Source: Alkalimarinus alittae
Lineage (GTDB): Bacteria; Pseudomonadota; Gammaproteobacteria; Pseudomonadales; Oleiphilaceae
NCBI RefSeq assembly: GCF_026016465.1
Contig: NZ_CP100390.1
Coordinates: 2,456,001-2,520,000, forward strand
Direction: 5' to 3'
Length of the DNA: 64,000 bases
A program made the position numbers and the translations under genes. The notes under the pieces are model-generated. The model worked only from the letters and a program-made list of their open reading frames with translations. It was not told where the DNA came from and ran no database searches. Of the stretch, positions 40,771-54,930 are shown piece after piece; the stretch's first letter is position 1; each line of letters opens with the position of its first letter.

Positions 40771-41256
40771 ATGGCACTAGTTAAAAAAGTAATGAAAACC
40801 AGTCTTGTCACTGCGACTCCAGGCGAGAGTGTTTCAACCGTATGCAAGCGTATGAAAGAAGCTCGTTTAGGCGCCATCTTAGTGGTCGATAATAATCGAC
40901 TATCTGGCATTTTTACTGAGCGTGACTTGTTGAATCGCGTCGTTTCAGAAGGAGTCGACCCAGCAACAACTTACGTTAGTGAAGTAGCAACCCCTAACCC
41001 AATTGTTGTTAAAGACGATACACATATCAAAGAGTGTGCAGAAATACTTCGAGACCAAGGCTTTCGCCACTTACCTGTTATGGATCAAGAAGGAAACCCT
41101 GCAGGAATTGTGTCGTCACGTGACTTCTTCCAATACATGGCAAATGAATTAGAGCAAATCATTGACAGAATGCGAGGAACAGATGAACAGGTTGATGAGA
41201 GTTTTGATATATACGAATACTTAGGGGCCGGTGGCTGCGGTCTACCACGACTCTAA
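40771..41256 (+). CDS. CBS-domain pair protein
   Basis: 161-aa cytoplasmic protein made of two CBS domains (about residues 8-65 and 72-135: ILVVDNNRLSGIFTERDLL and HLPVMDQEGNPAGIVSSRDF). Such stand-alone pairs bind adenine nucleotides or SAM and act as energy sensors. It has a good AAAGGTAA ribosome site. The C-terminal GAGGCGLPRL tail is not assignable. The partner is unknown. Confidence 0.85.
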   Translation: MALVKKVMKTSLVTATPGESVSTVCKRMKEARLGAILVVDNNRLSGIFTERDLLNRVVSEGVDPATTYVSEVATPNPIVVKDDTHIKECAEILRDQGFRHLPVMDQEGNPAGIVSSRDFFQYMANELEQIIDRMRGTDEQVDESFDIYEYLGAGGCGLPRL

Positions 41257-41265
41257 CGTTACTCA

Positions 41266-41292
41266 GGCAGCGTAGTTATAAACTACGCTGCC
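41266..41292. terminator. Shared terminator hairpin
   Basis: A perfect 12-bp stem (GGCAGCGTAGTT 41266-41277, AACTACGCTGCC 41281-41292) with a 3-nt loop lies between the converging CBS and thioesterase genes. Confidence 0.75.
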
Positions 41293-41330
41293 GCTAAATG
41301 ACATGCTGACTAAACTACAGATCATTCTAT

Positions 41331-41771
41331 CTACGCGACAACCACATAGCTCGCTTCTAAGTAGCCACACCTTTTACCTTTTGAACTTATATTCACTATT
41401 AACGGGATCCTGACTTTACCCTTACCAGCTAACTGGTTAATAAGTTCATGATCAGTCATTGAAACATCAATATTCGCAGCCAACTCCATTACATCAGTAA
41501 CCGGGCGATCATAGTGAATAGTGGCCTCTTTAACGACCAACTGACCCGCTGCGCCTGCTACATCCAACCGGTTATGCACTAATGCCCATCCAGTAGCTAC
41601 GGCTAATGAGTACTGAGCCCCGGCAAATCCAGTACCGTGCATATTACAGTTAGGCTCAAGGGGGGCTGTTGTCTTAATTGAGTCCGGCGTTAATAATGTT
41701 ACTGTCAACTTCATAAATGCGCACAAGGGTATATGTGTTTGAAGCAAATCATTCATTTGATCAGAATTCAT
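41331..41771 (-). CDS. YiiD C-terminal-type thioesterase
   Basis: 146-aa hot-dog-fold protein resembling the putative thioesterase domain found at the C-terminus of YiiD (FabP/YiiD_C family). Helpful blocks are LEPNCNMHGTGFAGAQYSLA (with the central helix) and KEATIHYDRPVT. It would hydrolyse acyl-CoA or acyl-ACP esters in the cytoplasm; the substrate is unknown. Divergent from a quinone-oxidoreductase-like gene. Confidence 0.78.
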   Translation of the reverse strand: MNSDQMNDLLQTHIPLCAFMKLTVTLLTPDSIKTTAPLEPNCNMHGTGFAGAQYSLAVATGWALVHNRLDVAGAAGQLVVKEATIHYDRPVTDVMELAANIDVSMTDHELINQLAGKGKVRIPLIVNISSKGKRCGYLEASYVVVA

Positions 41772-41895
41772 AAATATCCTTAATTTTTAACACCTTAAAT
41801 GAATATCTTCAAAGTATACACAGTATTGATTAATGAGGGGATATGTTTATGATTAAGAATACATACGCCACCACGATTTTAATGAGTAAAATTAA

Positions 41896-42882
41896 ATGAA
41901 ATTTATCGACATTCTAGAATTTGGTGCACCAGACGTACTTACGTTAAATACCACAACCCCACCGACACCCCGCCGCAACGAAGTGTTGGTGAAAGTCATT
42001 GCTGCTGGCGTTAATAGACCTGACGTTATTCAACGGCAAGGGCTCTACCCAGCACCTCCAGGCGCCTCACCTATATTAGGACTTGAAATAGCAGGCGAAA
42101 TTATAGCGCTAGGTGATGACGTTAATGATTTGAACATAGGTGATAAAGTTTGCGCACTCGCCAATGGCGGCGGATACGCTGAACAAGTCTGTGTCCCGGC
42201 CTCTCAATGCTTGCCGATTCCTAAAGGTCTCTCAATGATAGAGGCGGCAGCATTACCCGAAACATTTTTCACAGTCTGGAGTAATGTGTTTGATAGAGCC
42301 CAACTTAAATCTGGAGACTCATTTTTAGTTCACGGCGGCTCAAGCGGTATAGGAACAACCGCTATTCAAATGGCTAAAGCATTAGGCGCCAAAGTATTTA
42401 CAACAGCAGGTAGTAAAGAAAAGTGCGACACATGTCTCGAGCTCGGCGCTGACATTGCCATTAACTACCATGAAGCGGACTTTGTTGATGTTATTACAGA
42501 AGCAACAGAGGGTAAGGGAGTTGATGTTATATTAGATATGGTCGGGGGCGATTATATCCCTAAGAACCTTAAAACTGCTGCGATGGATGGTCGAATTGTT
42601 AACATTGCCTTTTTGCAAGGGCCGGTCGTTAAGGCTAATTTTTTACCGATTATGCTTAAACGTCTAACTGTTACAGGCTCAACATTGAGACCTCAAACTG
42701 AGGAGGCGAAAGCGAGCATTGCTTTAAATTTAAAAAACACGATATGGCCCTTAATAGAGGCGGGAAAAATTAAACCTGTCATAGCAAAGGTATTCCCACT
42801 TACAGAAGCAGCAGATGCCCATCGACTAATGGAGACCAATCAGCATATCGGTAAAATAGTTTTAACTGTGGGTGAAGAATAG
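41896..42882 (+). CDS. NAD(P)H-quinone oxidoreductase, MDR family (PIG3-type)
   Basis: 328-aa zinc-free medium-chain dehydrogenase/reductase. The N-terminal catalytic domain contains AAGVNRPDVIQRQGLYPAP and LGLEIAGEI, and the Rossmann motif is VHGGSSGIGTTAIQMA. The PIG3/quinone reductase subgroup uses NADPH to reduce quinones or enoyl substrates. A convergent hairpin (42918-42944) separates it from the lyase gene, so it is probably independent of that operon. Confidence 0.85.
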   Translation: MKFIDILEFGAPDVLTLNTTTPPTPRRNEVLVKVIAAGVNRPDVIQRQGLYPAPPGASPILGLEIAGEIIALGDDVNDLNIGDKVCALANGGGYAEQVCVPASQCLPIPKGLSMIEAAALPETFFTVWSNVFDRAQLKSGDSFLVHGGSSGIGTTAIQMAKALGAKVFTTAGSKEKCDTCLELGADIAINYHEADFVDVITEATEGKGVDVILDMVGGDYIPKNLKTAAMDGRIVNIAFLQGPVVKANFLPIMLKRLTVTGSTLRPQTEEAKASIALNLKNTIWPLIEAGKIKPVIAKVFPLTEAADAHRLMETNQHIGKIVLTVGEE

Positions 42883-42917
42883 TAAACGTTATCGCAACTA
42901 CGTCGAATGGGTAGACA

Positions 42918-42944
42918 CTAACACGGGCTAATAACCCGTGTTAG
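42918..42944. terminator. Shared terminator hairpin
   Basis: CTAACACGGG (42918-42927) pairs with CCCGTGTTAG (42935-42944) between the converging quinone-reductase and lyase genes. Confidence 0.7.
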
Positions 42945-42964
42945 CTGAGCCAACATTTAAAACG

Positions 42965-43870
42965 TTAGCCTTTTGAAGGTGCTATGATTTTTTCATAACG
43001 CGTGATAAGTTCTCTGGCACTGATAACAACCGGCATATCAATCATCTTACCTCGATACTCAACTGCCCCTCGCCCTTCAGCCAAACCTTGTTCAAATGCC
43101 TCAATTAACCCTTTTGCGTTTTCTACCGCATCAACACTCGGCATAAGTTCTTCGTTTAACACCGTTGCTTGTTTAGGATGTATGCAAAATGCGCCCACAA
43201 ACCCTAATTGATTCGCAAACTGAATCGTTTTACGGAATGCATCTATATTACTGTAGTCAGCGATAGACCCCGGAAAGCCCAATGGCGAGATACCCACACG
43301 TCGACACGCATACGCAATCATTTGGTTAGGCATCAATAACGTTTCAGGTATCGAGTGCATTCCCGCAGAGGCAGAAAAATCTTCAGAACCCAAGGTGACA
43401 GAAATAACACGGGGGTGAGCGTCAGCAATTTCATCCAGCTTTGGCAACGCTTCAACCGATTCAATCATCGCAATCAACAAAGTGTGACCGCTCTGAATGC
43501 CTCTATCACTCTCAAGTTGGCTTATCTTTTTGGCAATGGATATAACCTGCTCTGCGCTCTCAACTTTAGGAATCACTATCGCGGCGACCGAAGCATCGAC
43601 AGAGGCCTCTAAGTCTTGGTGTGCCATGCTTTCATCAAGGTTAATCCGTACTAATGCCGCTGCGCCATCAACCGAAACCTGCTTGGCAGCACCGACCACC
43701 TTACTTCGAGCAAGCGCTTTTTCCGCTAATGGAACGCTGTCTTCTAAGTCTAGAATATAAGCGTCTGCGCCTCGGGTATGCGCTTTTGCTACAAATTTAT
43801 CCACATGTACGGGGATAAATAATAAAGAGCGCCATCCAGGGTACGTTGCATGCTTCATTTTATTATCCAT
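42965..43870 (-). CDS. CoA-ester lyase of the CitE/HpcH family, probable (S)-citramalyl-CoA lyase
   Basis: 301-aa TIM-barrel lyase of the citrate-lyase-beta/malyl-CoA lyase family. Metal- and CoA-binding blocks are seen: RSLLFIPVHVDKF, ADAYILDLEDSVP, LVRIN, IAMIESVEALP with the metal Glu, and LGSEDFSASAG. Family members cleave malyl-CoA, beta-methylmalyl-CoA or citramalyl-CoA. Position directly after the hydratase (stop and ATG overlap as TAATG) and a CoA-transferase supports cleavage of (S)-citramalyl-CoA to pyruvate and acetyl-CoA. Alternative: beta-methylmalyl-CoA to glyoxylate and propionyl-CoA, as in the classical ethylmalonyl-CoA pathway. Confidence 0.75.
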   Translation of the reverse strand: MDNKMKHATYPGWRSLLFIPVHVDKFVAKAHTRGADAYILDLEDSVPLAEKALARSKVVGAAKQVSVDGAAALVRINLDESMAHQDLEASVDASVAAIVIPKVESAEQVISIAKKISQLESDRGIQSGHTLLIAMIESVEALPKLDEIADAHPRVISVTLGSEDFSASAGMHSIPETLLMPNQMIAYACRRVGISPLGFPGSIADYSNIDAFRKTIQFANQLGFVGAFCIHPKQATVLNEELMPSVDAVENAKGLIEAFEQGLAEGRGAVEYRGKMIDMPVVISARELITRYEKIIAPSKG

Positions 43871-44727
43871 TAAACCGCCTCACCCAGTTCTGCATCTATC
43901 TTCATGCACATCGCATTATCACTATCAACAGACCATAATTGTAATTTATCGCCTTCACGCTTAGCTTCTACTTTAAACGGTGATGTATCAAACGTTGGTC
44001 GCACTGCTCTAAATTTAATACGCGACACTCTATCCTGAGGCACTTCAGCTCTCGCTAACTCTAACAACATAGTCACCAGTAACGGCCCATGAACAACCAA
44101 GGCTGGGTATAACTCCTCTTGTACAGCGTAGGTTCTATCATAATGAATTCGATGACCATTAAATGTAAGCGCAGAATAGCGGAACAATAATACGGGGTCG
44201 GGTGTGATTGTTTTGCTCCAAGTCGCATCAACAGGAGGCGCTTTAACTGGCGGTAATGGCGCGTCAGCAGCAGGTTGTTCTCGATAAACAATATTTTGTA
44301 GCTGACTAATACAAAGCTCATCTTGCTGATAAATTTCGTGTTTAACCGTTACAAAAATTAATGTACCGGTACTACCCTCTTTTAAATCAACAGATTCAAT
44401 AGTCGAAACGCGTGAAGCGGGCTCACCGATCACCACATGTTTAATATACTGGGCCTCACCTGCTGCCCACATTCTTCTTGGTAATGGAACCGGTGGCAAA
44501 AACCCACCCTTTGCAGGATGCCCATCTTCGCCAGTAGCAGATGCCTTTGGCGTCGGTAAAAAGTACATCCACTCCCAAAATGGCGGTAACGAATCCCCTT
44601 TACTCGGCAAAGCATCATTATCAAGTGCTGCGGCTAGCGCTTGCGCTGGGAACAACGAAATATCATCGTATAAGGTTTCTTGCTTTCCAATCCATGTTTG
44701 TAAGTGTGCGATATCTATTGCTGACAT
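43870..44727 (-). CDS. MaoC/HTD2-type hydratase, probable mesaconyl-C4-CoA hydratase
   Basis: 285-aa double hot-dog protein of the FAS1-type dehydratase / HTD2 group. The N-terminal half carries FLPPVPLPRRMWAAG (residues 77-90) and the C-terminal half carries the hydratase motif GHRIHYD (191-197) plus HGPL. This is the family of mesaconyl-C4-CoA hydratase (Meh) of the 3-hydroxypropionate bicycle and of itaconyl-CoA hydratase (Ich) in Pseudomonas; both yield (S)-citramalyl-CoA. It is clearly shorter and different from the MaoC-type mesaconyl-C1-CoA hydratase (Mch) of the ethylmalonyl-CoA pathway. Second gene of a three-gene operon. Confidence 0.75.
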   Translation of the reverse strand: MSAIDIAHLQTWIGKQETLYDDISLFPAQALAAALDNDALPSKGDSLPPFWEWMYFLPTPKASATGEDGHPAKGGFLPPVPLPRRMWAAGEAQYIKHVVIGEPASRVSTIESVDLKEGSTGTLIFVTVKHEIYQQDELCISQLQNIVYREQPAADAPLPPVKAPPVDATWSKTITPDPVLLFRYSALTFNGHRIHYDRTYAVQEELYPALVVHGPLLVTMLLELARAEVPQDRVSRIKFRAVRPTFDTSPFKVEAKREGDKLQLWSVDSDNAMCMKIDAELGEAV

Positions 44728-44825
44728 GTCATTGCCTATTTGATTCTTTTAATAATAGTAATAAGTAATATTTTTATAGCCTTGATGCAGTTAAGCGGAA
44801 TCAGGGTTTCGGCTGATTCTTTAAA

Positions 44826-46037
44826 CTAAGCTCCTGCAATCACACCCTTATCGTGTAATTTGCCTATTTGTGCAGAATCAAGTCCCAATACATCAGTTAA
44901 TACTTCATCAGTATGCTGGCCTAGCTTAGGTGCAGGTCGAGCCGGCGCTCTCTCAAATGCAGAAAAATTCCAAGGTGCACCCGCTGCCAAATGACTACCC
45001 ACTCCCGCTTGATCAATTTGGTTGAACATTGGATTGTCGGCTGAGCAATCTGGATTAGTGTCTACCATCTGCTTAACCGTTTGGTATCGACTCCAGCATA
45101 CGCCATTTGCATTAAATACTTGTTCGACTTGTGCAAATGAATGACGTGCTATCCATCCTCCAATAAGGGCTGAAATTTCTTCTCGAGCCGCAAACCGGTT
45201 ACCTTCTTGAGACAGGTCTAGCCCTAACGCTTCACCTAGCGCGGCCATAGCAGCGGTTGTTTCAGTGGCTATACATAACGACTTCCACTGTCTGCCCGTG
45301 AGCCCAATAACCATCACTCTTGCGCCGTCGTTACATAGGAAGTCACGACCAAAGGCACCGAAGAGATAATTACCATATCTAGGCCGTTCTTGCCCCAATT
45401 GAGCTTCTGCTATAAATCCGAGATGCCCCATAACAGCCATCGCGGCATCGGCTAATGCTAGTTTAACGTGCTGGCCTTCACCGGTACGATTGCGATGCCG
45501 CTCGGCAGCAAGCAAGCCCAATGCCGCCATTTGTCCGGTCACCAAATCCCATGCAGGTAATACATGGTTTGATGGTTCTTTACTCTCTGTACTGCCGGTT
45601 AAGAAAGGTAAGCCGATCGCAGGGTTAACGGTATAATCAACTGCAGAGCCACCATGGCGATCGCCTTGAATCGTTAGCTGTATAAGGTCTTCTCTATGAG
45701 CCGTTAACGCTTCAAATGAAAGCCACCCTTTTGGCGGAAAATTAGTTAACAGCATGCCAGCCTCTTTGCCTGGAGCTGTAATGATTTGACGAGCGAGCTC
45801 AGACCCTTCGGGTGATCTAAAATTTAACGCCACAGAGCGCTTTGACTTGTTCAAACCGGCCCAAAAAAGACTGACATTATCGTCTGTAACAGGCCATCGA
45901 CGGTAATCCAGCCCCCCTCCGATAGCATCTATACGAATAACATCTGCGCCCAACTGAGCCAGCGTCATCCCACCTAAAGGTGCTGCAACAAATGCTGATG
46001 CTTCTACTACCCGCATACCCGAAAGGATACCTTTCAT
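44826..46037 (-). CDS. mct: class III CoA transferase, probable mesaconyl-CoA C1-C4 CoA transferase
   Basis: 403-aa CaiB/BaiF (family III) CoA transferase. The catalytic Asp is Asp164 in PAWDLVTGQM. The N-terminal block (SAFVAAPLGGMTLAQLGADV, then IGGGLDYRRWPVT) and the overall length closely follow what I recall of the Chloroflexus intramolecular mesaconyl-CoA transferase Mct. That enzyme moves CoA from C1 to C4 of mesaconate without a free acceptor. Homologous itaconate CoA transferases (Ict) exist, so substrate is inferred from the neighbouring methylsuccinyl-CoA dehydrogenase, which makes mesaconyl-C1-CoA. First gene of the operon, with a GGGAG ribosome site. Confidence 0.72.
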   Translation of the reverse strand: MKGILSGMRVVEASAFVAAPLGGMTLAQLGADVIRIDAIGGGLDYRRWPVTDDNVSLFWAGLNKSKRSVALNFRSPEGSELARQIITAPGKEAGMLLTNFPPKGWLSFEALTAHREDLIQLTIQGDRHGGSAVDYTVNPAIGLPFLTGSTESKEPSNHVLPAWDLVTGQMAALGLLAAERHRNRTGEGQHVKLALADAAMAVMGHLGFIAEAQLGQERPRYGNYLFGAFGRDFLCNDGARVMVIGLTGRQWKSLCIATETTAAMAALGEALGLDLSQEGNRFAAREEISALIGGWIARHSFAQVEQVFNANGVCWSRYQTVKQMVDTNPDCSADNPMFNQIDQAGVGSHLAAGAPWNFSAFERAPARPAPKLGQHTDEVLTDVLGLDSAQIGKLHDKGVIAGA

Positions 46038-46150
46038 ATCTCACTCCCTAAATTTTTTTCAGAATCATAAACCACAGTATGCTATAAATCCATTTTTGAT
46101 CTTAGTAACATTCACCTCAATGATCTTTTGTAACACGACTGGAATTGTTT

Positions 46151-47170
46151 ATGCGAGCGCTCATTTTCAAGCAACTAGGGGCAATAGAAACTGTCGAGCT
46201 AGCCGATTTACCACTATTAACACCTGAAAAAGGCCAAGTTCGTATAAAAATAACGTCAGCAGGACTAAACCGAGCTGACACTTTATTCCCTGAAGGTCGT
46301 TACTTCTTCAAACCACAGTTTTCGCGCCTAGCCTCAACCAACATCGATACAAACTACAGCCGACTAGGGTTTGAAGGCGCAGGTATTATTGATGCGGTTG
46401 GTCCTGAGGTTGATTATAGCGTGGGGGATCGAGTAGCCATTACCCCACTCGTACTCAATGTAAGCCATCAAGGCTGTATGGCCGAATACGGTATTTATGA
46501 TGCAAACACCTTAATCCCTACACCTGACCGCATATCTGATGAGGATGCGGGTTCCATTTGGATGCAATACCTAACCGCTTGGGGCGGTCTCATTATCGAT
46601 GGCCAATTAAAGCAAGGGCAATCTGTCGTCATAACCGCTGCATCAAGCTCCGTTGGCATCGCAGCCATACAGATAGCCAACATGCTCGGCGCTAACACAA
46701 TTGCGACTACGACTAGCGAAGAAAAAATGGCGCAACTAAACCAATTAGGCGCCCAACATGTCATCAATATGAAAACAGATGATTATGTTACACAAATAAA
46801 ACACCTAACTCAGAATAAAGGGACAGACCTTGTATTTGATGCAGTTGCGGGTCCCGATATACGCGACCTAGTACAAGGGTCTGCTAAAGGCGGTAAAATA
46901 ATCATACAGGGCATGCTAGATAGACGCCCCATGGATATACACGCCGGCGTATTAATGAAAAGGCTGTTAACAGTTAAAGGCTTTACCTTAGACGAGGTAC
47001 TAGAAAACCCTGAAATACTAGATGAATGTGTCACACAAATAACCAAGGGCATTAACACTAACCAGTTAACCCCCGTGATAGCACAGAAATTTACCTTACC
47101 TCAGTTTAAAGAGGCTTTTTCATTCCTTAAATCCAACAAACATACAGGTAAAATAGTGATCAATCCGTAA
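46151..47170 (+). CDS. zinc-independent MDR family oxidoreductase
   Basis: 339-aa medium-chain reductase. The N-terminal domain contains ITSAGLNRADTLFPEGRYF and LGFEGAGIIDAVG, and the Rossmann motif is ITAASSSVGIAAIQIA. The usual zinc-binding Cys set is missing, so it looks like a quinone/enoyl reductase type. The ATG at 46151 has GGAA about 7 bp upstream; a TTG at 46145 is less likely. It is divergent from mct and 261 bp before mcd. It might act on a CoA intermediate or aldehyde of the pathway, but no substrate can be read from the sequence. Confidence 0.75.
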   Translation: MRALIFKQLGAIETVELADLPLLTPEKGQVRIKITSAGLNRADTLFPEGRYFFKPQFSRLASTNIDTNYSRLGFEGAGIIDAVGPEVDYSVGDRVAITPLVLNVSHQGCMAEYGIYDANTLIPTPDRISDEDAGSIWMQYLTAWGGLIIDGQLKQGQSVVITAASSSVGIAAIQIANMLGANTIATTTSEEKMAQLNQLGAQHVINMKTDDYVTQIKHLTQNKGTDLVFDAVAGPDIRDLVQGSAKGGKIIIQGMLDRRPMDIHAGVLMKRLLTVKGFTLDEVLENPEILDECVTQITKGINTNQLTPVIAQKFTLPQFKEAFSFLKSNKHTGKIVINP

Positions 47171-47431
47171 ACAGTGTTTGTAATTTCTCTCTTTTTGACT
47201 AAATATCATCCTGTAAACTGCACCAAAAAAACTCAAAATTTTGATAATAATCACATACATGCTCAGTTTTAGAGCAGTCAGCCCGAGATTTTCTTTAGTT
47301 ATAAATCTAATTAATATAGGATATCTCGACTATTTAACTAATACTTTAGGCTAATACCGCACTCATTTATATAAACTGTGCTGGTCTTAATTGCCCCTTT
47401 TATTCCCTACTTACACTAATTAGGAGGCCTC

Positions 47432-49120
47432 TTGTCTCAGCACCCATCACAACTTATTGACCAAGCTCTGGCTGCAGTCGAACTAGGACAGCAGCTGTTA
47501 AATCAATCATTGAGCTTCGTCAAAAAGAACTGCCTGAACGAAGCCGGACGCATATCAGCCTCTAAGTTAGATCATTATCAACTTGTATCTTACGACTTAG
47601 CGTTTTCTGCTGCCGAGCTAACCGGAGCAAAGTGCATGGTTGATTATGCACGTAAAATCAGAAGCAACAGAGGCGACACACAAGATTTACAAATTGAAGA
47701 GCGCATCACCCTACAGTTTTGTGCAGAAGTACTTCAAAATATTCGGGGTCGTTTAGCGCCAAGAAAGAAAGAATTTGGACTAACGCGTGAAGACTTTATC
47801 AATACATTAGACTCAGAAAGCGTACAAACTTTTTGTGACGAGCACTTATCAACCGATAAGTTAGTTGAACTTGGTCAGTTGGCACTTCGTGAAAATGGTC
47901 GCACTGGCGACTATGTGCTTGAAGAAGATAAAGAGATCATGCGTGAGACCTTTAGAAACTTTGCCACTGATGTTGTCATGCCTCTCGCAGAAGAAATTCA
48001 TAGGCATGACCTTATCGTGCCAGATGAGATTCTCAACACACTCGTAGAAATGGGCTGCTTTGGTCTATCAATCCCCGAAAAATATGAAGGTCTTCAACCA
48101 GACGATCAAGAAGATAATATGGGGATGATCGTGGTCACTGAAGAGTTATCACGAGGTTCTTTGGCCGCAGCAGGTAGTTTAATTACACGCCCTGAAATCT
48201 TGTCGCGCGCGCTTCTAGCCGGTGGAACAGAAGAACAAAAGCAGTATTGGCTCCCTAAATTAGCGGCTGCAGACCCATTTTGTGCAGTCGCCATCACAGA
48301 GCCTGACTACGGTTCTGACGTCGCAGGCATGAAATTAAAAGCAGAGCGCGTAGAAGGTGGTTGGTTACTGAATGGCGCAAAAACCTGGTGTACCTTTGGC
48401 GGTAAAGCCGGCGTACTACTGACACTTGCTAGAACAGATACGGACCCGAGCCTTGGTCATAAAGGCCTCAGTATGTTCCTAGTTGAAAAACCTTCGTTTG
48501 ATGGACATGACTTTTCTTATCAACAAGAAGGCGGCGGCAAACTTACAGGTAAGGCCATCCCAACCATTGGTTACCGTGGGATGCATTCATTTGATGTCTT
48601 TTATGATGACGTGTTTGTTCCTGATTCGAACCTACTAGGTGGCGAAGCCGGATTAGGTAAAGGCTTTTATTACACCATGGCTGGTTTCTCAGGTGGTCGA
48701 ATTCAGACCGCAGCACGTGCGAATGGCTTAATGCAAGCCGCTTTTGAAGCAGGTATTAACTATGCCAAAGAGCGTAAAGTGTTTGGCGCACCTATTGGTG
48801 ATTACCAACTCACACTCGTAAAACTAGCTAAGATGGCCACATTATTAACCGCATCAAGACAGTTCACCTATGCAGTTGGCCGTTTAATGGACGAAGGTAA
48901 AGGGCAAATGGAAGCGAGCCTAGTTAAACTGTTCGCGTGTAAAAGTTCTGAGTGGTTAAGCAGAGAAGCCATGCAAATTCATGGGGGGATGGGCTACGCT
49001 GAAGAGTCATCAGTTAGCCGCTATTGGATCGATGCAAGGGTCTTGTCAATTTTTGAAGGTGCAGAAGAAACATTAGCACTGAAAGTGATTGCCCGCTCGC
49101 TCATTGAGAATGCTGCATAA
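47432..49120 (+). CDS. mcd: (2S)-methylsuccinyl-CoA dehydrogenase
   Basis: 562-aa flavoprotein oxidising methylsuccinyl-CoA to mesaconyl-C1-CoA, with electrons passed to ETF. The acyl-CoA dehydrogenase core (about residues 180-560) has the FAD/substrate blocks FCAVAITEPDYGSDVAG, WLLNGAKTWCTFGG and MQIHGGMGYAEE, and the catalytic Glu542 in SIFEGAEE. The 165-residue N-terminal extension (LVSYDLAFSAAELTGAK) is typical of Mcd and absent from ordinary acyl-CoA dehydrogenases. It starts with TTG after AGGAGG. It lies 15 bp upstream of ecm, as expected for an ethylmalonyl-CoA operon. Confidence 0.87.
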   Translation: MSQHPSQLIDQALAAVELGQQLLNQSLSFVKKNCLNEAGRISASKLDHYQLVSYDLAFSAAELTGAKCMVDYARKIRSNRGDTQDLQIEERITLQFCAEVLQNIRGRLAPRKKEFGLTREDFINTLDSESVQTFCDEHLSTDKLVELGQLALRENGRTGDYVLEEDKEIMRETFRNFATDVVMPLAEEIHRHDLIVPDEILNTLVEMGCFGLSIPEKYEGLQPDDQEDNMGMIVVTEELSRGSLAAAGSLITRPEILSRALLAGGTEEQKQYWLPKLAAADPFCAVAITEPDYGSDVAGMKLKAERVEGGWLLNGAKTWCTFGGKAGVLLTLARTDTDPSLGHKGLSMFLVEKPSFDGHDFSYQQEGGGKLTGKAIPTIGYRGMHSFDVFYDDVFVPDSNLLGGEAGLGKGFYYTMAGFSGGRIQTAARANGLMQAAFEAGINYAKERKVFGAPIGDYQLTLVKLAKMATLLTASRQFTYAVGRLMDEGKGQMEASLVKLFACKSSEWLSREAMQIHGGMGYAEESSVSRYWIDARVLSIFEGAEETLALKVIARSLIENAA

Positions 49121-49135
49121 ATCTAGGAAGGAACT

Positions 49136-51166
49136 ATGACCGAACAAAATAACCACACCATCTATGATAAAAACGGCAAGCCTACAATCGATCGCCCATG
49201 GATTTTTCGCACCTATGCTGGGCACACTAATGTATGGGCAACCAATGCGCTTTACCGTGATAACTTGTCTAAAGGACAAACCGGTTTAAGTATCGCGATG
49301 GACTTGGCAACTCAGTGCGGTTATAGCTCCGACCACCCCATCGCCAAACCAGAAATTGGTAAAGTGGGTGTTCCTATTAATTCACTAGATGATTTTCATA
49401 TTCTATTTGAGAATATTCCTCTTGAAGAAATGAATACATCAATGACCATTAATGGCACTGCCATGTGGTTATTATCCCTTTATGTCGCCCTCGCTGAAGA
49501 GCGAGGCGTAGACATTAGTCAATTGAAAGGTACTACGCAAAACGACCTTATCAAAGAGTATCTCGCACGGGGAACCTATATTTTCCCACCTGAAGACTCT
49601 ATGCGCCTCATCGTTGATATGTACGAATTTTGTTTGCATAAAATTCCCAGTTGGAATGCATCGAACATCTGCTCATATCACTTACAAGAAGCTGGTGCGA
49701 CTCCGGTTCAAGAGCTCGCGTTTGCATTGGTAACGGCAATTACGATTCTTGATGCAATCAAAGAGCGTGACTGCTTTACTGAAGAAGAATTCGAACGTTG
49801 TGTCGGACGGATCTCGTTTTTTGTTAATGCCGGCATGCGCTTTGTAGAAGAAGTTTCAAAAATGCGTGCCTTCTGCGAGATGTGGGATGAAATAACACAA
49901 GAGCGATATGGTGTTAAAAATGCCAAATATAGACGTTTTAGGTACGGTGTTCAGGTCAACTCGCTTGGGCTAACAGCAGAACAACCTGAAAACAATGCAT
50001 GGCGAATTCTAATCGAAACACTCGGAGTCACTCTTAGCCGTAAAGCCCGTTGTCGCGCACTACAACTTCCCGCGTGGAACGAAGCACTCTCACTGCCCCG
50101 CCCTTGGGATCAACAATGGTCATTAAGAATTCAACAAATTCTTGCCTATGAAACAGACTTACTCGAGTATCCCGACTTACTTGAAGGTTCGGTTGTTATT
50201 GAGTCTAAAGTTAAGCAACTCAAAGATCAGGCATACACTGAGATCAACCGCGTTCTTGACCTAGGTGGCGGCGTAGAAGCCGTTAAGACCGGATACATGA
50301 AGTCTGCGTTAGTCTCATCACAAAGCCAGCGTATGGGCCGCCTCGCAAATGGCGAACAAATCGTTGTGGGTAAAAACAAATGGGTCGAAGGCTTAGAGTC
50401 TCCATTGGTGAGCGACAGCGACGGTGGTATCTTTATGGTCGACGCTAATGCCGCTCAAAAAACACTTGATGCACTAGAAGAAACAAAACGGACGCGAGAT
50501 GATGCACGTGTGAAAGCAGCACTTAGTCGCCTAGCTGAAGAGGCCAAAAGTAATAATAACCTCATGGAAGCATCCATCGAATGCGCTAAAGCTCGTGTAA
50601 CAACCGGAGAGTGGTCAGAAACACTTCGCAGCGTCTTTGGTGAGTATAGACCCCCAACAGGGGTTGATGGTCAGTCAATGTCTATTAAAGAAGATAGTGA
50701 GAGTCTTGTGTCTGTACGTAAGAAAATTGCTAACTTTATAGAAACCCATGGTTATCGTCCTCGCATTGTTGTAGGCAAACCCGGACTCGATGGACATTCA
50801 AACGGTGCCGAAATGATCGCTGTTGCAGCAAAACATGCTGGTTTTGATGTCGTCTATTTTGGAATAAGGCTTAGTGCATCCGACATTGTTCAGTCTGCAC
50901 TTGAAGAAAACGTAGATCTCATCGGAATTTCTCTGCTATCAGGCTCGCATAATGAGATCATCACCCAGCTATTTGATGAACTCGACAAAAATGGTGCTAA
51001 AGATGCTATACCAGTAATACTGGGTGGCATCATTCCTGAACCAGATTACGATAGCCTGCTCGAAAAAGGTGTTAAACGCATATTCACGCCTAAAGATTTT
51101 GACCCAATGGTTGTCATGGGCGAAATTATGGACGTGATTAATGAGCAGAAATCAAAGCAGCATTGA
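49136..51166 (+). CDS. ecm: ethylmalonyl-CoA mutase, B12-dependent
   Basis: 676-aa coenzyme B12 radical enzyme converting (2R)-ethylmalonyl-CoA to (2S)-methylsuccinyl-CoA. The catalytic barrel contains RTYAGH, MNTSMTINGTAMWLL and SYHLQEAGATP. The C-terminal B12 domain has the DxHxxG ligand motif (Asp552, His554, Gly557) followed by SLLSGSH and LGGIIP. Several blocks (RPWIFRTYAGH, AWNEALSLPRPWDQQW) agree with Ecm as I recall it from Rhodobacter, and distinguish it from methylmalonyl-CoA mutase. Strong AGGAAGGA site. Its end overlaps the meaB start. Confidence 0.9.
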   Translation: MTEQNNHTIYDKNGKPTIDRPWIFRTYAGHTNVWATNALYRDNLSKGQTGLSIAMDLATQCGYSSDHPIAKPEIGKVGVPINSLDDFHILFENIPLEEMNTSMTINGTAMWLLSLYVALAEERGVDISQLKGTTQNDLIKEYLARGTYIFPPEDSMRLIVDMYEFCLHKIPSWNASNICSYHLQEAGATPVQELAFALVTAITILDAIKERDCFTEEEFERCVGRISFFVNAGMRFVEEVSKMRAFCEMWDEITQERYGVKNAKYRRFRYGVQVNSLGLTAEQPENNAWRILIETLGVTLSRKARCRALQLPAWNEALSLPRPWDQQWSLRIQQILAYETDLLEYPDLLEGSVVIESKVKQLKDQAYTEINRVLDLGGGVEAVKTGYMKSALVSSQSQRMGRLANGEQIVVGKNKWVEGLESPLVSDSDGGIFMVDANAAQKTLDALEETKRTRDDARVKAALSRLAEEAKSNNNLMEASIECAKARVTTGEWSETLRSVFGEYRPPTGVDGQSMSIKEDSESLVSVRKKIANFIETHGYRPRIVVGKPGLDGHSNGAEMIAVAAKHAGFDVVYFGIRLSASDIVQSALEENVDLIGISLLSGSHNEIITQLFDELDKNGAKDAIPVILGGIIPEPDYDSLLEKGVKRIFTPKDFDPMVVMGEIMDVINEQKSKQH

Positions 51167-52166
51167 TTCAACGATGATGACTGAAATTAACGATATGCTT
51201 GAGCGAGCTACGAGGTTAGAGAAGTGGCCTCTAGCTCGCCTGATTTCGCAATTTGAAACCAGCACTGATAAAGCTAAACAGATACGCCACACTGTCATCG
51301 AGGCGCTTAATAACCGCCCTGATAAAATGAAAAAAAACGGACTAGTGCTCGGTATAACGGGGACTCCGGGCGCGGGAAAGTCTAGCCTTATAGGTGAAGT
51401 TTGCCTAAATATACTAGACAAAAAACCTGAGCTTTCGATTGCAGTCTTGGCGGTTGACCCTTCGAGTCAGCGGTCGGGCGGCTCTCTATTAGGCGACCGC
51501 ACGCGTACTAACTTCCCAATTAATGACAATCGTTTATTCTTTCGCTCTCAGGCTTCAGACCTAGACTTAGGGGGCGTAGGCAAAAAGACATACCAAGTTA
51601 CCCGCCTGCTAAGACATCTATTCGACATCATTATTATCGAAACCGTCGGTATTGGCCAAAGCGAGATTGAAATTGAACAACTTAGTGATCACACATGCCT
51701 GATACTTCAACCGTTTGCGGGTGACCAAGTTCAGTTTATGAAAGCAGGCATAATGGAAGTTCCCGATACGTTCATTATTAATAAGTGTGACGAAGATAGT
51801 CTCGCGAAAAAAAGTTATCACCTTTTAAAGTCGAGTCTAAAACTCGTTAATGTGTCAATTGACCAAGAGGTTGACGCAGCAAAGAAGATATTTTTAACCA
51901 GTGCGATTAAACAAAAAGGCATTGATGAGCTATCAAGCTTCATACTTCAACTTTATTCAGATCCAGCAGTAAGAAAGGATACACGAGAGCAAGAATTATT
52001 TTATCTACGTAAGTGGGTTCAACAGGAGTTCGGTCGCTTCGGCACATCACAACTTAATGCATTACCCGCTTACGAACTTCAGTCACACAATAGTTATGAG
52101 AAGAAGGAAAGCATCATTTTAGATGCGATACACGCGGTTATCCCTTCTCTCGCTATTACAGATTAA
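51141..52166 (+). CDS. meaB: MeaB/ArgK family GTPase chaperone of acyl-CoA mutase
   Basis: 341-aa G3E P-loop GTPase that protects and reloads B12-dependent acyl-CoA mutases. Walker A is GTPGAGKSS near residues 74-82, followed by AVDPSSQRSGGSLLGDRTR and VETVGIGQSE. The ORF overlaps ecm by 26 bp at its first ATG (51141); in-frame ATGs at 51174 and 51177 are also possible starts. Direct fusion-like overlap with ecm indicates that this MeaB serves ethylmalonyl-CoA mutase. Confidence 0.92.
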   Translation: MSRNQSSIDSTMMTEINDMLERATRLEKWPLARLISQFETSTDKAKQIRHTVIEALNNRPDKMKKNGLVLGITGTPGAGKSSLIGEVCLNILDKKPELSIAVLAVDPSSQRSGGSLLGDRTRTNFPINDNRLFFRSQASDLDLGGVGKKTYQVTRLLRHLFDIIIIETVGIGQSEIEIEQLSDHTCLILQPFAGDQVQFMKAGIMEVPDTFIINKCDEDSLAKKSYHLLKSSLKLVNVSIDQEVDAAKKIFLTSAIKQKGIDELSSFILQLYSDPAVRKDTREQELFYLRKWVQQEFGRFGTSQLNALPAYELQSHNSYEKKESIILDAIHAVIPSLAITD

Positions 52167-52202
52167 CCAATTTAATAAACTTAAAATAAAAGGGAAACTG
52201 CT

Positions 52203-53453
52203 ATGACAGCAACCAAAAATCTTTACGAAATCGGCGAAGCACCACCATTAGGTGAAGTACCTGAAAAAATGCACGCGTGGCTTATTCGCCCAGAACGTTT
52301 TGGCGAGCCTACTCAAGCGTTTCAGAAAGAAACGCTTGATGTGCCTGCCATAAAAGATGATGAAGTTTTGGTCTATGTCATGGCTGCAGGTGTTAACTAT
52401 AATAATGTTTGGGCAGGCCTTGGCGTACCCGTAAACGTTATAGCAGCACGAAACAAAGCGGGTGAAACCGAAAACTTTCACATTGGCGGTTCCGACGCCT
52501 CTGGTATCGTTTATAAAGTCGGTAAAGATGTTACTAGCGTAAAAGTTGGTGATGAAGTTGTTGCTCACTGTGGTAGCTGGCAGAAAAACTGCCCAATGGA
52601 ACAAGTCGGTAAAGACCCCATGTATGACGATAGCTTCAGAATTTGGGGCTATGAGACAAACTATGGCAGTTTTGCTCAATTTACCAAAGTTCAAGACCAC
52701 CAACTACTTCCTAAGCCTAAGCACTTAAGCTGGGAAGCGGCCGCAACCTATATGTTAGTAGGTGCAACGTCTTACCGCATGCTTATGGGCTGGCAACCAA
52801 ACACGGTTAAAAAAGATGATGTTGTTTTAGTTTGGGGGGGGGCTGGCGGTATCGGCTCCATGGCGATTCAAATTGCTAAAGCGCAAGGCGCTAAACCTAT
52901 TGCCGTCATTTCTGATGATAGCAAGATCGATTTCTGCATGAAGCTTGGTGCAATAGGTTGCATCAACCGTAATGATTTTGACCACTGGGGTATGATGCCT
53001 CACTGGAAAGATCAAGAAGCATACGGCCAGTGGGTAAAAGGGGCACGTAAATTCGGTAAAGCTATCTGGGATATCCTGGGTGAGAAACGTGGCGTCGATA
53101 TCGTATTTGAACACCCTGGTGAAACAACACTACCTACCTCGGTGTTTGTTTGTGAAACCGGTGGAATGGTCGTTATCTGTGCGGGTACCACTGGCTTTAA
53201 TGCTACCTTAGACCTTCGCTACCACTGGATGCGTCAAAAGCGCTTGCAGGGCTCTCATTTTGCCAACGATGATCAGGCCAAAGGTATTAATGATTTAGTT
53301 GCTGCTGGTAAAGTTGATCCATGCCTTGCCAATACGTATACCTACGACCAGTTACCAGAAGCTCACCAATTAATGTATGAAAACAAACACCCGGCTGGAA
53401 ACATGTCTGTCTTAGTCGGCGCTAAAGACACCAACATGGGTATTAGTGAGTAA
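52203..53453 (+). CDS. ccr: crotonyl-CoA carboxylase/reductase
   Basis: 416-aa NADPH-dependent medium-chain reductase that reductively carboxylates crotonyl-CoA with CO2 to (2S)-ethylmalonyl-CoA; the key enzyme of the ethylmalonyl-CoA pathway. Family-specific blocks include [62 protein letters not shown] and [14 protein letters not shown]. These set it apart from plain enoyl reductases. A run of nine G (52834-52842) lies in the nucleotide-binding loop codons. Ribosome site AAGGGAAA. Confidence 0.95.
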
Positions 53454-53509
53454 TCTAAAATCTCCTCGTTCAACAGAGCGAGGAGGCTTTTAAAGTAGAG
53501 TGTTAAACC

Positions 53510-53914
53510 ATGATTAAGAAAATTGACCACTTGGGTATTGCAGTAACAGACCTTAAAGAAGCCATCGAGGTCTATAAAAATATAGGCCTTGAGTTTGTCG
53601 GCACTGAAGTCGTTGACGAACAAAAAGTTGAAACTGCTTTTTTTAAAGTAGGTGAATCATATTTCGAACTGCTCGCAGCCACCGACCCATCAAGCCCAAT
53701 TGCTAAGTTTATCGATAAAAACGGGGGGCGTATGCATCATATTGCCCTAGCTGTTGATGATATTGAAGCAGAAATAGAGCGTCTTTCTGGGCTAGATTTT
53801 GAAATGATCGACACCGTTCCACGGAAAGGTGCACACGGAAACTTGATTGCCTTTATGCATCCAAGATCGACCAAAGGTACGCTTTTAGAAATTTGTGCTA
53901 AAGCAAAAGCTTAG
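53510..53914 (+). CDS. epi: ethylmalonyl-CoA/methylmalonyl-CoA epimerase
   Basis: 134-aa glyoxalase/VOC-fold epimerase that inverts C2 of ethylmalonyl-CoA and methylmalonyl-CoA. Metal ligands appear as His (KKIDHLGIAV), Gln/Glu (VVDEQKVETAF), His (GGRMHHIALAVDD) and Glu (GTLLEIC). It closes the plus-strand ethylmalonyl-CoA gene set, 56 bp after ccr, where it would link the Ccr product to Ecm. Confidence 0.9.
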   Translation: MIKKIDHLGIAVTDLKEAIEVYKNIGLEFVGTEVVDEQKVETAFFKVGESYFELLAATDPSSPIAKFIDKNGGRMHHIALAVDDIEAEIERLSGLDFEMIDTVPRKGAHGNLIAFMHPRSTKGTLLEICAKAKA

Positions 53915-53931
53915 TGTTTAAATTCTTTTTC

Positions 53932-54001
53932 GCGCCAAAGTGGTGCTCCTACAAATGCTATTAAGTGTGTGTTAATTCATGTAGGAGTACCACTTTGGCG
54001 C
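53932..54001. repeat. Palindromic intergenic repeat, hairpin terminator
   Basis: GCGCCAAAGTGGTGCTCCTACA (split here as GCGCCAAAGTGG and TGCTCCTACA; 53932-53953) pairs with 53980-54001, 22 bp with one G-U. The TGTAGGAG...CACTTTGGCG composition resembles dispersed REP-like palindromes of pseudomonad-type genomes. It lies between converging epi and htpX and may terminate both. Confidence 0.75.
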
Positions 54002-54010
54002 AGCTAAACG

Positions 54011-54862
54011 TTATTGCCGCCCCTGTAATGCCGCTATTCTTTTCTCTAATGGAGGATGGCTCATAAACAGCTCAGACATTGCCCTTTTACCACTAATACC
54101 AAAAGCGGTTAATTGTCCATCAAGTTGACTTTCAGTTTTATCACCTTGCAATCGTCTTAATGCATCAATCATCTTTTGCTTGCCTGCTAAGCTGGCACCA
54201 CCTTCATCGGCACGGAACTCTCTGTAACGAGAAAACCACATGACGATAATACTGGCTAGGGCACCGAATACAACTTGGAAGAACATCACCGTTAAAAAGT
54301 AAACGAAACGGTTATCACTGCCCCGGCTAATCGCACTCGCCGCTATGCGAGCAAAAAAGAATACAAAGGTGTTCATCACACCTTGAAGCAGAGTCATAGT
54401 AACCATATCACCATTAGCTACGTGGCTTACTTCATGGCCTAGTACTGCCTCTGCTTCATCTTGCGTCATACTCTGAAGCAGCCCAGTGCTAACGGCTACC
54501 AATGCATTATTTTTATTCATCCCCGTCGCAAACGCATTAATCTCGGGAGAGTCATACATTGCGACTTCCGGCATGCCAATGCCTGCTGCATCTGCTTGTT
54601 TTTTTACAGTACTCAAAAGCCAGCTTTCTTGCGCATTGCGAGGTTGCTCAATGACATAAGCACCCACGCTTCTTTTAGCAACCCATTTAGACATTGCGAG
54701 CGAAATAAAAGAGCCCCCCATACCAAAAACAGCAGATATAACTAAAAGACCACTAGTGCCTTCAGGGTGTATTCCTAATATTGGTAAAACGACATTAAGT
54801 ACAATGCCCAAAACAATCAATATCGCGAAGTTAGTCGCAATAAACAGCATAATACGTTTCAT
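54011..54862 (-). CDS. htpX: membrane-bound zinc metalloprotease HtpX
   Basis: 283-aa inner-membrane M48 protease in membrane-protein quality control. Two N-terminal hydrophobic helices, the zinc motif HEVSH at 143-147, a downstream Glu ([13 protein letters not shown]) as third ligand, and two more helices near 155-215. The ATG at 54862 follows GGAGAAATT; the frame is open ten codons upstream without support. It sits downstream of tmk, where holB is usually found in relatives. Confidence 0.95.
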
Positions 54863-54930
54863 AATTTCTCCAGAACAGTTTATCCAGAACAATCTAATTA
54901 AAGTTGATCATCAGTCGAATAAAGCAAATA

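Follow-up and report, generated by a model that had tools for sequence, protein, structure and literature searches.

A putative natural junction of the ethylmalonyl-CoA pathway with a mesaconyl-C4-CoA/citramalyl-CoA branch towards pyruvate in Alkalimarinus alittae

Can an ethylmalonyl-CoA pathway (EMC) end in pyruvate? The question is raised by a gene cluster in a 64,000-nucleotide stretch of the Alkalimarinus alittae genome (contig NZ_CP100390.1, positions 2,456,001 to 2,520,000; hereafter the window), the genome itself (G000) being a single contig of 4,254,924 bases, 99.99% complete. There, a minus-strand trio encoding an Mct-like CoA transferase, a hydratase, and a CitE-type lyase, with a one-base overlap between the last two genes, is divergent from the plus-strand genes mcd-ecm-meaB-ccr-epi, which constitute the front of the EMC. 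Both the gene set with its coordinates and a hybrid reading of it had been put forward in an earlier note: all open reading frames (ORFs) were found in their places on both strands, and the reading is supported by gene content, the absent canonical end, co-occurrence, synteny, and residue conservation. The cluster is thus considered a natural hybrid of the EMC and the mesaconyl-C4-CoA/citramalyl-CoA branch with a probability of roughly three in four (0.74). With somewhat less assurance, it probably provides the family of this organism with a natural, oxygen-tolerant, and ATP-free equivalent of pyruvate synthase, dispensing with the glyoxylate/propionyl-CoA end of the EMC.

In the proposed route, crotonyl-CoA, presumably derived from two acetyl-CoA, from polyhydroxybutyrate or from the last turn of beta-oxidation, would be reductively carboxylated by crotonyl-CoA carboxylase/reductase (Ccr) with CO2 and NADPH to ethylmalonyl-CoA, which the epimerase and then the rearrangement by ethylmalonyl-CoA mutase (Ecm) would turn into methylsuccinyl-CoA. 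Methylsuccinyl-CoA dehydrogenase (Mcd) would oxidize the latter to mesaconyl-C1-CoA, passing electrons to the electron-transferring flavoprotein (ETF). At this point the Mct-like enzyme would replace Mch and Mcl by moving CoA intramolecularly, yielding mesaconyl-C4-CoA, to be hydrated to (S)-citramalyl-CoA and finally cleaved by the lyase into acetyl-CoA and pyruvate. The net sum, counting the reduction of acetoacetyl-CoA with NADPH, would be acetyl-CoA + CO2 + 2 NADPH + ETF(ox) -> pyruvate + CoA + ETF(red), with no requirement for ATP, glyoxylate or propionyl-CoA. Every catalytic step and flux direction in this scheme is predicted from gene content, absences, co-occurrence, synteny, and residues, which are themselves observed.

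The enzymes of the EMC front are clearly recognizable. Ccr and the epimerase exceed their curated NCBIfam cut-offs, and Ccr matches the structure 4gi2 at 502 bits. Ecm shares 54-72% identity with mutases encoded in the EMC clusters of Candidatus Accumulibacter and of G083, a genome from another family (81% complete; the match being partial in G083), but only 34-37% with methylmalonyl-CoA mutases, and its score against PRK09426 lies below the cut-off. Mcd matches the (2S)-methylsuccinyl-CoA dehydrogenase 8ciw at 638 bits (290 bits for 6es9) and, judged by residues described in PMC5798300, displays the N-terminal extension and three-arginine site characteristic of the EMC enzyme, retaining the three substrate arginines, the catalytic Glu, as well as Thr320 and the Trp tied to dehydrogenase function. 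Its methyl-pocket pair A285/F287 is replaced by V/I (I/V in the G083 and Accumulibacter rows) and E380 by S. In a midpoint-rooted tree, it falls together with the Mcd proteins encoded in the EMC clusters of Accumulibacter and G083 (support 99).

Among NCBIfam models, the transferase scores highest with TIGR04253, 2-methylfumaryl-CoA isomerase (572.4 bits, the next model reaching 110), and among solved structures with those of Mct, 7xkg and 8apq (566 and 555 bits, the next chain 98). In Chloroflexus Mct, Asp165 is catalytic, Arg47 and Tyr136 hold the substrate, Leu/Ile43 is conserved among intramolecular transferases, and the tunnel is sealed by R75, F101, and R104 (PMC9813914). Six of these seven residues are identical in the window protein (L43, R47, R74, F100, Y135, D164), the seventh being K103 for R104, and 12 of 13 alignment rows agree with this pattern (L or I at position 43), the exception being a 45% homologue from G080. 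Models, structures, and site residues bear out the label of Mct-like transferase given previously, the curated cut-off being missed, and an intramolecular C1-C4 CoA transfer is proposed on their basis.

The hydratase and lyase belong to the right families for a mesaconyl-C4-CoA hydratase and a citramalyl-CoA lyase, those being their predicted substrates. The best solved relative of the hydratase is the itaconyl-CoA hydratase 8khg (223 bits), and itaconyl-CoA hydratases are reported to work also as mesaconyl-C4-CoA hydratases (PMC12290011). In a midpoint-rooted tree, it groups with the hydratase of Nevskia (99/95), apart from Ich and from Meh of the 3-hydroxypropionate (3HP) bi-cycle type; it was not matched by PF19315, the mesaconyl-CoA hydratase family, in G000 nor, in stretch L054, by the Mch-type protein of G083 at 1e-8. 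The lyase groups with those of Nevskia (L057) and Marinobacter (L101), apart from the 3HP bi-cycle type, in a tree with many long branches, and shares 25-28% identity with lyases of 3HP-type and Accumulibacter loci. At the position of a Trp conserved in malyl-CoA lyases (MCLs; PMC3832036), the ten window-type lyases have F (eight) or L (two). The Trp itself is present in the rows of the two MCLs, of the 3HP-type lyases, and of Accumulibacter; CLYBL has Q there and RipC has A.

Consistent with an altered exit, no protein of the canonical end was detected in G000. There was no match at 1e-8 to the 395-residue Mch-type protein of G083 (PF19315 at 68.8 bits, cut-off 26.5), and none to PF19315 in a search whose control matched 3 of 14 named genomes; PF13452 was found only in the hydratase of the trio and in a short single-domain protein resembling one in G003, which lacks Ccr. 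PF03328, searched in G000 only, gave no second protein over the cut-off besides the lyase of the trio, with a further 20-bit match inside a 772-residue frame falling below it. A DUF6986 (PF22484) lyase like the 480-residue one of G083 was found neither in G000 nor in the other nine genomes carrying both Ccr and Mct, and the sole PF01642 protein of G000 is the Ecm of the cluster, leaving no methylmalonyl-CoA mutase (Mcm). Since no Mch, second CitE-type or DUF6986 lyase, or Mcm was found, the EMC could not finish its known way in this genome; a genuine Mch with Mcl1 elsewhere in it, which the earlier note had named as the finding that would speak against the hybrid, is thus not among its detected proteins.

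Presence of the two gene sets also coincides among relatives. In a sample of 117 genomes including G000, Ccr (E 1e-60 or better) occurs in 11 and Mct (at least 70% identity) in 10, all ten of the latter carrying Ccr (G000, G001, G002, G004, G006, G013, G021, G031, G036, G044); no genome of the sample has Mct without Ccr at these thresholds. The sole Ccr genome devoid of window-type Mct is G083, whose cluster holds Mch-type and DUF6986 genes and whose genome also contains a methylmalonyl-CoA mutase. Both Ccr and Mct are missing together within genera, namely in G003 (g1), G020 (g3, 74% complete), G007 and G026 (g4), and G008, G022, G027, G032, G037, and G041 (g5). More distant Mct-like proteins (45-54%) occur without Ccr in G015, G060, and G080. 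Full-length Mch-type proteins were found in 5 of the 117 genomes (G083, G084, G092, G099, G102). These do not include any of the ten with Ccr and Mct, and seven of those ten have a single PF01642 mutase. The Fisher p of 1.2e-13 for the co-occurrence ignores kinship and is not relied on.

Gene order is likewise conserved. The arrangement trio, reductase, mcd-ecm-meaB-ccr is kept in all eight relatives having both sets on one stretch, with the epimerase gene after ccr in five of them, while in a ninth relative (G006) the sets are on two contigs. Such a recurrence in 8/8 relatives indicates that the adjacency of the trio and the EMC genes is not due to chance. The pairwise distances among trio proteins correlate with those among EMC proteins at 0.76-0.94 across the ten genomes, as expected of a block travelling whole.

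Among the alternatives, the one that survives best, although it is considered unlikely, is that the trio forms an independent catabolic module, converting itaconate, mesaconate or methylsuccinate into acetyl-CoA and pyruvate and merely adjoining the EMC genes. It is favoured by the frequency with which Mcd and Mct are neighbours on their own: when named genomes were scanned with the Mct alignment, at least 80 loci were obtained, and among the matches listed Mcd (at least 51% identity) lies near Mct, with neither Ccr nor Ecm matched on the stretch, in 29 of 80, three further loci showing the same with Mcd at 35-46%. A Ccr search (E 1e-50) covering the genomes of 27 of the 80 listed loci found Ccr in four, of which three are Accumulibacter (69-71%) and one belongs to Actinomycetota (38%), and in none of the 18 searched Mcd-Mct genomes or the five of the 3HP kind. 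Moreover, Nevskia carries meh-ccl-mcd-mct in a single run (L057, 4608-9244), and a Pseudomonas itaconate cluster is described in PMC12290011 as breaking down methylsuccinate. On the contrary, with an independent trio the EMC of G000 would stop at mesaconyl-C1-CoA, no other exit having been found, and the coincident presence and absence of both sets across the 117 genomes would be left aside. In addition, the transferase scores at most 110 bits against succinyl-CoA-dependent transferase models, and the ORFs of at least 120 residues at 41200-54900 include no separate CoA ligase or transferase gene that would activate the substrate. An itaconate operon as such was rejected, the transferase being Mct-like by models, structures, and residues, with no direct comparison to Ict sequences included.

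The Mcd-Mct loci may rather indicate where the tail of the hybrid came from. In a midpoint-rooted tree, the window-type Mct falls together (SH-aLRT 100) with that encoded in seven Mcd-Mct loci of beta-proteobacteria, Bradyrhizobium, and Nevskia. Because Mct and hydratase group with the Mcd-Mct loci and Nevskia, and Mcd with EMC clusters, the window lineage appears to have combined an EMC head with a tail of the methylsuccinyl-CoA type. Among the matches listed, Mcd-Mct neighbours without Ccr occur in many beta- and gammaproteobacteria (L055, L056, L057, L059, L101, and others), and in five listed loci their neighbouring ORFs, judged by eye, are thiolase-, transferase- or CoA-ligase-like; a possible role for such loci is the degradation of methylsuccinyl-CoA via its C1-CoA ester. 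In G060 and G015 (L039, L040), Mct and Mcd lie ~3 kb apart and their Mcd groups with that of Marinobacter, the ORFs neighbouring those of L040 resembling, by eye, CoA ligases, a thiolase, and an SDR.

A second alternative, slightly less credible still, is a canonical EMC completed by substitution, with the hydratase acting on mesaconyl-C1-CoA, the CitE-type lyase splitting beta-methylmalyl-CoA into glyoxylate and propionyl-CoA, and the Mct-like protein as an accessory. Malyl-CoA lyases are promiscuous (PMC3832036), malate synthase is available for glyoxylate, and Mcm is present in three of the ten Ccr and Mct genomes. Nonetheless, this would leave without a role an Mct-like gene kept in 10/10 Ccr genomes of the family, and propionyl-CoA would find no methylmalonyl-CoA mutase in G000 (the methylcitrate route was outside the search). 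The hydratase, closest to a solved itaconyl-CoA hydratase and unmatched by PF19315 or the G083 Mch-type protein, and the lyase, with F or L in place of the MCL Trp, also argue against it. With neither Mch, a second lyase nor Mcm found in G000, it was rejected as the principal explanation.

The hybrid route would not, however, be the only anaplerotic one. G000 encodes an isocitrate lyase of 531 residues (NF005074, 1009 bits, cut-off 446) and malate synthase G, and thus has a glyoxylate shunt too; the suggestion that glyoxylate and malate synthase are bypassed is qualified by the presence of both shunt enzymes. Paracoccus provides a precedent for retaining two acetyl-CoA routes (PMC6747724). Because the shunt genes are present, the use of the proposed route is likely to be a carbon-saving, electron-consuming formation of pyruvate on reduced substrates. 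The least probable alternative, that the same chemistry serves electron or C4/C5-CoA overflow or salvage and not main carbon assimilation, would fit the shunt genes and the occurrence of the tail module elsewhere without Ccr, but the presence of dedicated ccr, ecm, and meaB genes in a row with mcd suggests that ethylmalonyl-CoA is made here, not disposed of.

Several observations weigh against the hybrid reading. The transferase falls short of the curated TIGR04253 cut-off of 725, for which reason it is named Mct-like, as do the window-type proteins of G013 and G044 (554 and 553) and those of the Polaromonas and Nevskia Mcd-Mct pairs without Ccr (544 and 548); the cut-off is passed by Roseiflexus (868) and Accumulibacter (811), the Rubrivivax 3HP-type protein failing at 682, so that window-type transferases are a lower-scoring set than those of Roseiflexus and Accumulibacter. 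All 92 Mct-like rows have R47, Y136, and D165, and 91 of the 92 have L or I at 43; being nearly universal, these residues are indicative of enzyme type but not of pathway. Neither the hydratase nor the lyase has a close characterised relative, the best PDB matches of the lyase being Rhodobacter malyl-CoA lyase (108 bits) and human CLYBL (100 bits). Since a bi-functional MCL also produces citramalyl-CoA (PMC3832036), the MCL Trp position gives a hint only, and lyase specificity is the least certain link of the proposed route. Furthermore, G021, G031, and G036 additionally hold a methylmalonyl-CoA mutase, and G036, alone among the ten, gives a two-piece PF19315 match. Co-occurrence inside one family does not amount to many independent events, and with isocitrate lyase and malate synthase present the route may not be needed.

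Coordinates of the cluster are collected in Table 1. It includes a plus-strand MDR-type reductase gene, absent from the list of the earlier note, between the trio and the EMC genes. This reductase lies between mct and mcd in the window and its nine relatives (beside mct in the split G006), with 46-73% identity.

Table 1. Genes of the cluster, with positions in the window (aa, amino acids).
Gene product	Position	Strand	Features
CitE-type lyase, proposed (S)-citramalyl-CoA lyase	42965..43870	-	301 aa, PF03328 137.8 bits
MaoC-fold hydratase, proposed mesaconyl-C4-CoA hydratase (Meh/Ich-like)	43870..44727	-	285 aa, PF13452
Mct-like class III CoA transferase, proposed intramolecular mesaconyl-CoA C1-C4 transferase	44826..46037	-	403 aa, PF02515
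MDR-family zinc-type reductase	46145..47170	+	matches like polyketide synthase (PKS) enoyl reductases
(2S)-Methylsuccinyl-CoA dehydrogenase (Mcd)	47432..49120	+	562 aa, acyl-CoA dehydrogenase
Ethylmalonyl-CoA mutase (Ecm), B12 mutase	49136..51166	+	identity to EMC-cluster mutases
MeaB-type GTPase, mutase chaperone	51141..52166	+	PF03308 191 bits
Crotonyl-CoA carboxylase/reductase (Ccr)	52203..53453	+	TIGR01751 564.8 bits, cut-off 378.55
Ethylmalonyl-/methylmalonyl-CoA epimerase (epi)	53510..53914	+	TIGR03081 142 bits, cut-off 114.95

Compared with known systems, the cluster shares Ccr, epimerase, Ecm, MeaB, and Mcd with the EMC as given in PMC8307300, but G000 is devoid of detected Mch, second or DUF6986 lyase, and methylmalonyl-CoA mutase, and the proposed exit leads through the C4-CoA ester to pyruvate. 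With the second branch of the 3HP bi-cycle (Mct, Meh, Mcl) it has in common an Mct-like transferase and a hydratase predicted to lead towards citramalyl-CoA. However, mesaconyl-CoA would arise here from the carboxylation of crotonyl-CoA, and not from glyoxylate and propionyl-CoA, the hydratase and lyase group elsewhere, Mch is missing, and the transferase stays below the Mct cut-off. The Pseudomonas degradation of itaconate and methylsuccinate has the same end, from mesaconyl-C4-CoA through citramalyl-CoA to acetyl-CoA and pyruvate, but it relies on an itaconate CoA transferase together with a dehydrogenase specific for the C4 ester, and involves no carboxylation (PMC12290011).

In Candidatus Accumulibacter (L069, L072, L073, L076), the EMC genes share one cluster with genes for Meh, Mct, and an Mcl-like protein; 3HP bi-cycle genes were already known there (PMC6593406). 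Unlike the window, these clusters also hold an Mch-type gene and a DUF6986 lyase. They thus possess both ends, and could form the junction to pyruvate as well. The proposed route may extend beyond the family of the window organism. As to DUF6986 (PF22484), the protein is encoded between mcd and ccr in the G083 EMC cluster (L042, 4369-5811) and in the Accumulibacter clusters, and is a candidate beta-methylmalyl-CoA lyase; in the two related genomes G092 and G099 (L135, L136, L141, L142), Mch-type and DUF6986 genes lie ~2 kb apart, with no Ccr match at 1e-60.

The acetyl-CoA assimilation pathways listed in PMC11599936 yield C4 compounds, which must lose CO2 to give pyruvate, and the same work presented in 2024 an engineered oxygen-tolerant, CO2-incorporating link to pyruvate as new to nature. 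Were the hybrid reading true, nature would already possess such a link, in a new acetyl-CoA assimilation pathway from which synthetic biology would gain enzymes already fitted to one another by evolution, and which would caution annotators that Ccr does not equal a complete EMC. By arithmetic from the stoichiometries in PMC10521678, it would spend one acetyl-CoA per pyruvate, against two via the glyoxylate shunt. In the earlier note the combination was not known as an established pathway: no report of it as a natural pathway was found in the open full-text literature, outside which most subscription papers lie, but it is already in print as an in-silico design, the reductive citramalyl/ethylmalonyl-CoA pathway of 2021 (PMC10521678). 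That design converts acetyl-CoA + HCO3- + 2 NADPH + ubiquinone (UQ) into pyruvate + 2 NADP+ + UQH2 + CoA, at a calculated -39 +/- 9 kJ/mol, and its reaction sequence and net stoichiometry are the same as those proposed here. The window encodes the Ccr, Ecm, and Mcd of the design along with a protein resembling mesaconyl-CoA C1-C4 transferase; the design is an artificial combination, whereas the window holds a conserved natural gene cluster, which, if the reading is true, would realise in nature a pathway otherwise encountered in the literature only as a design.

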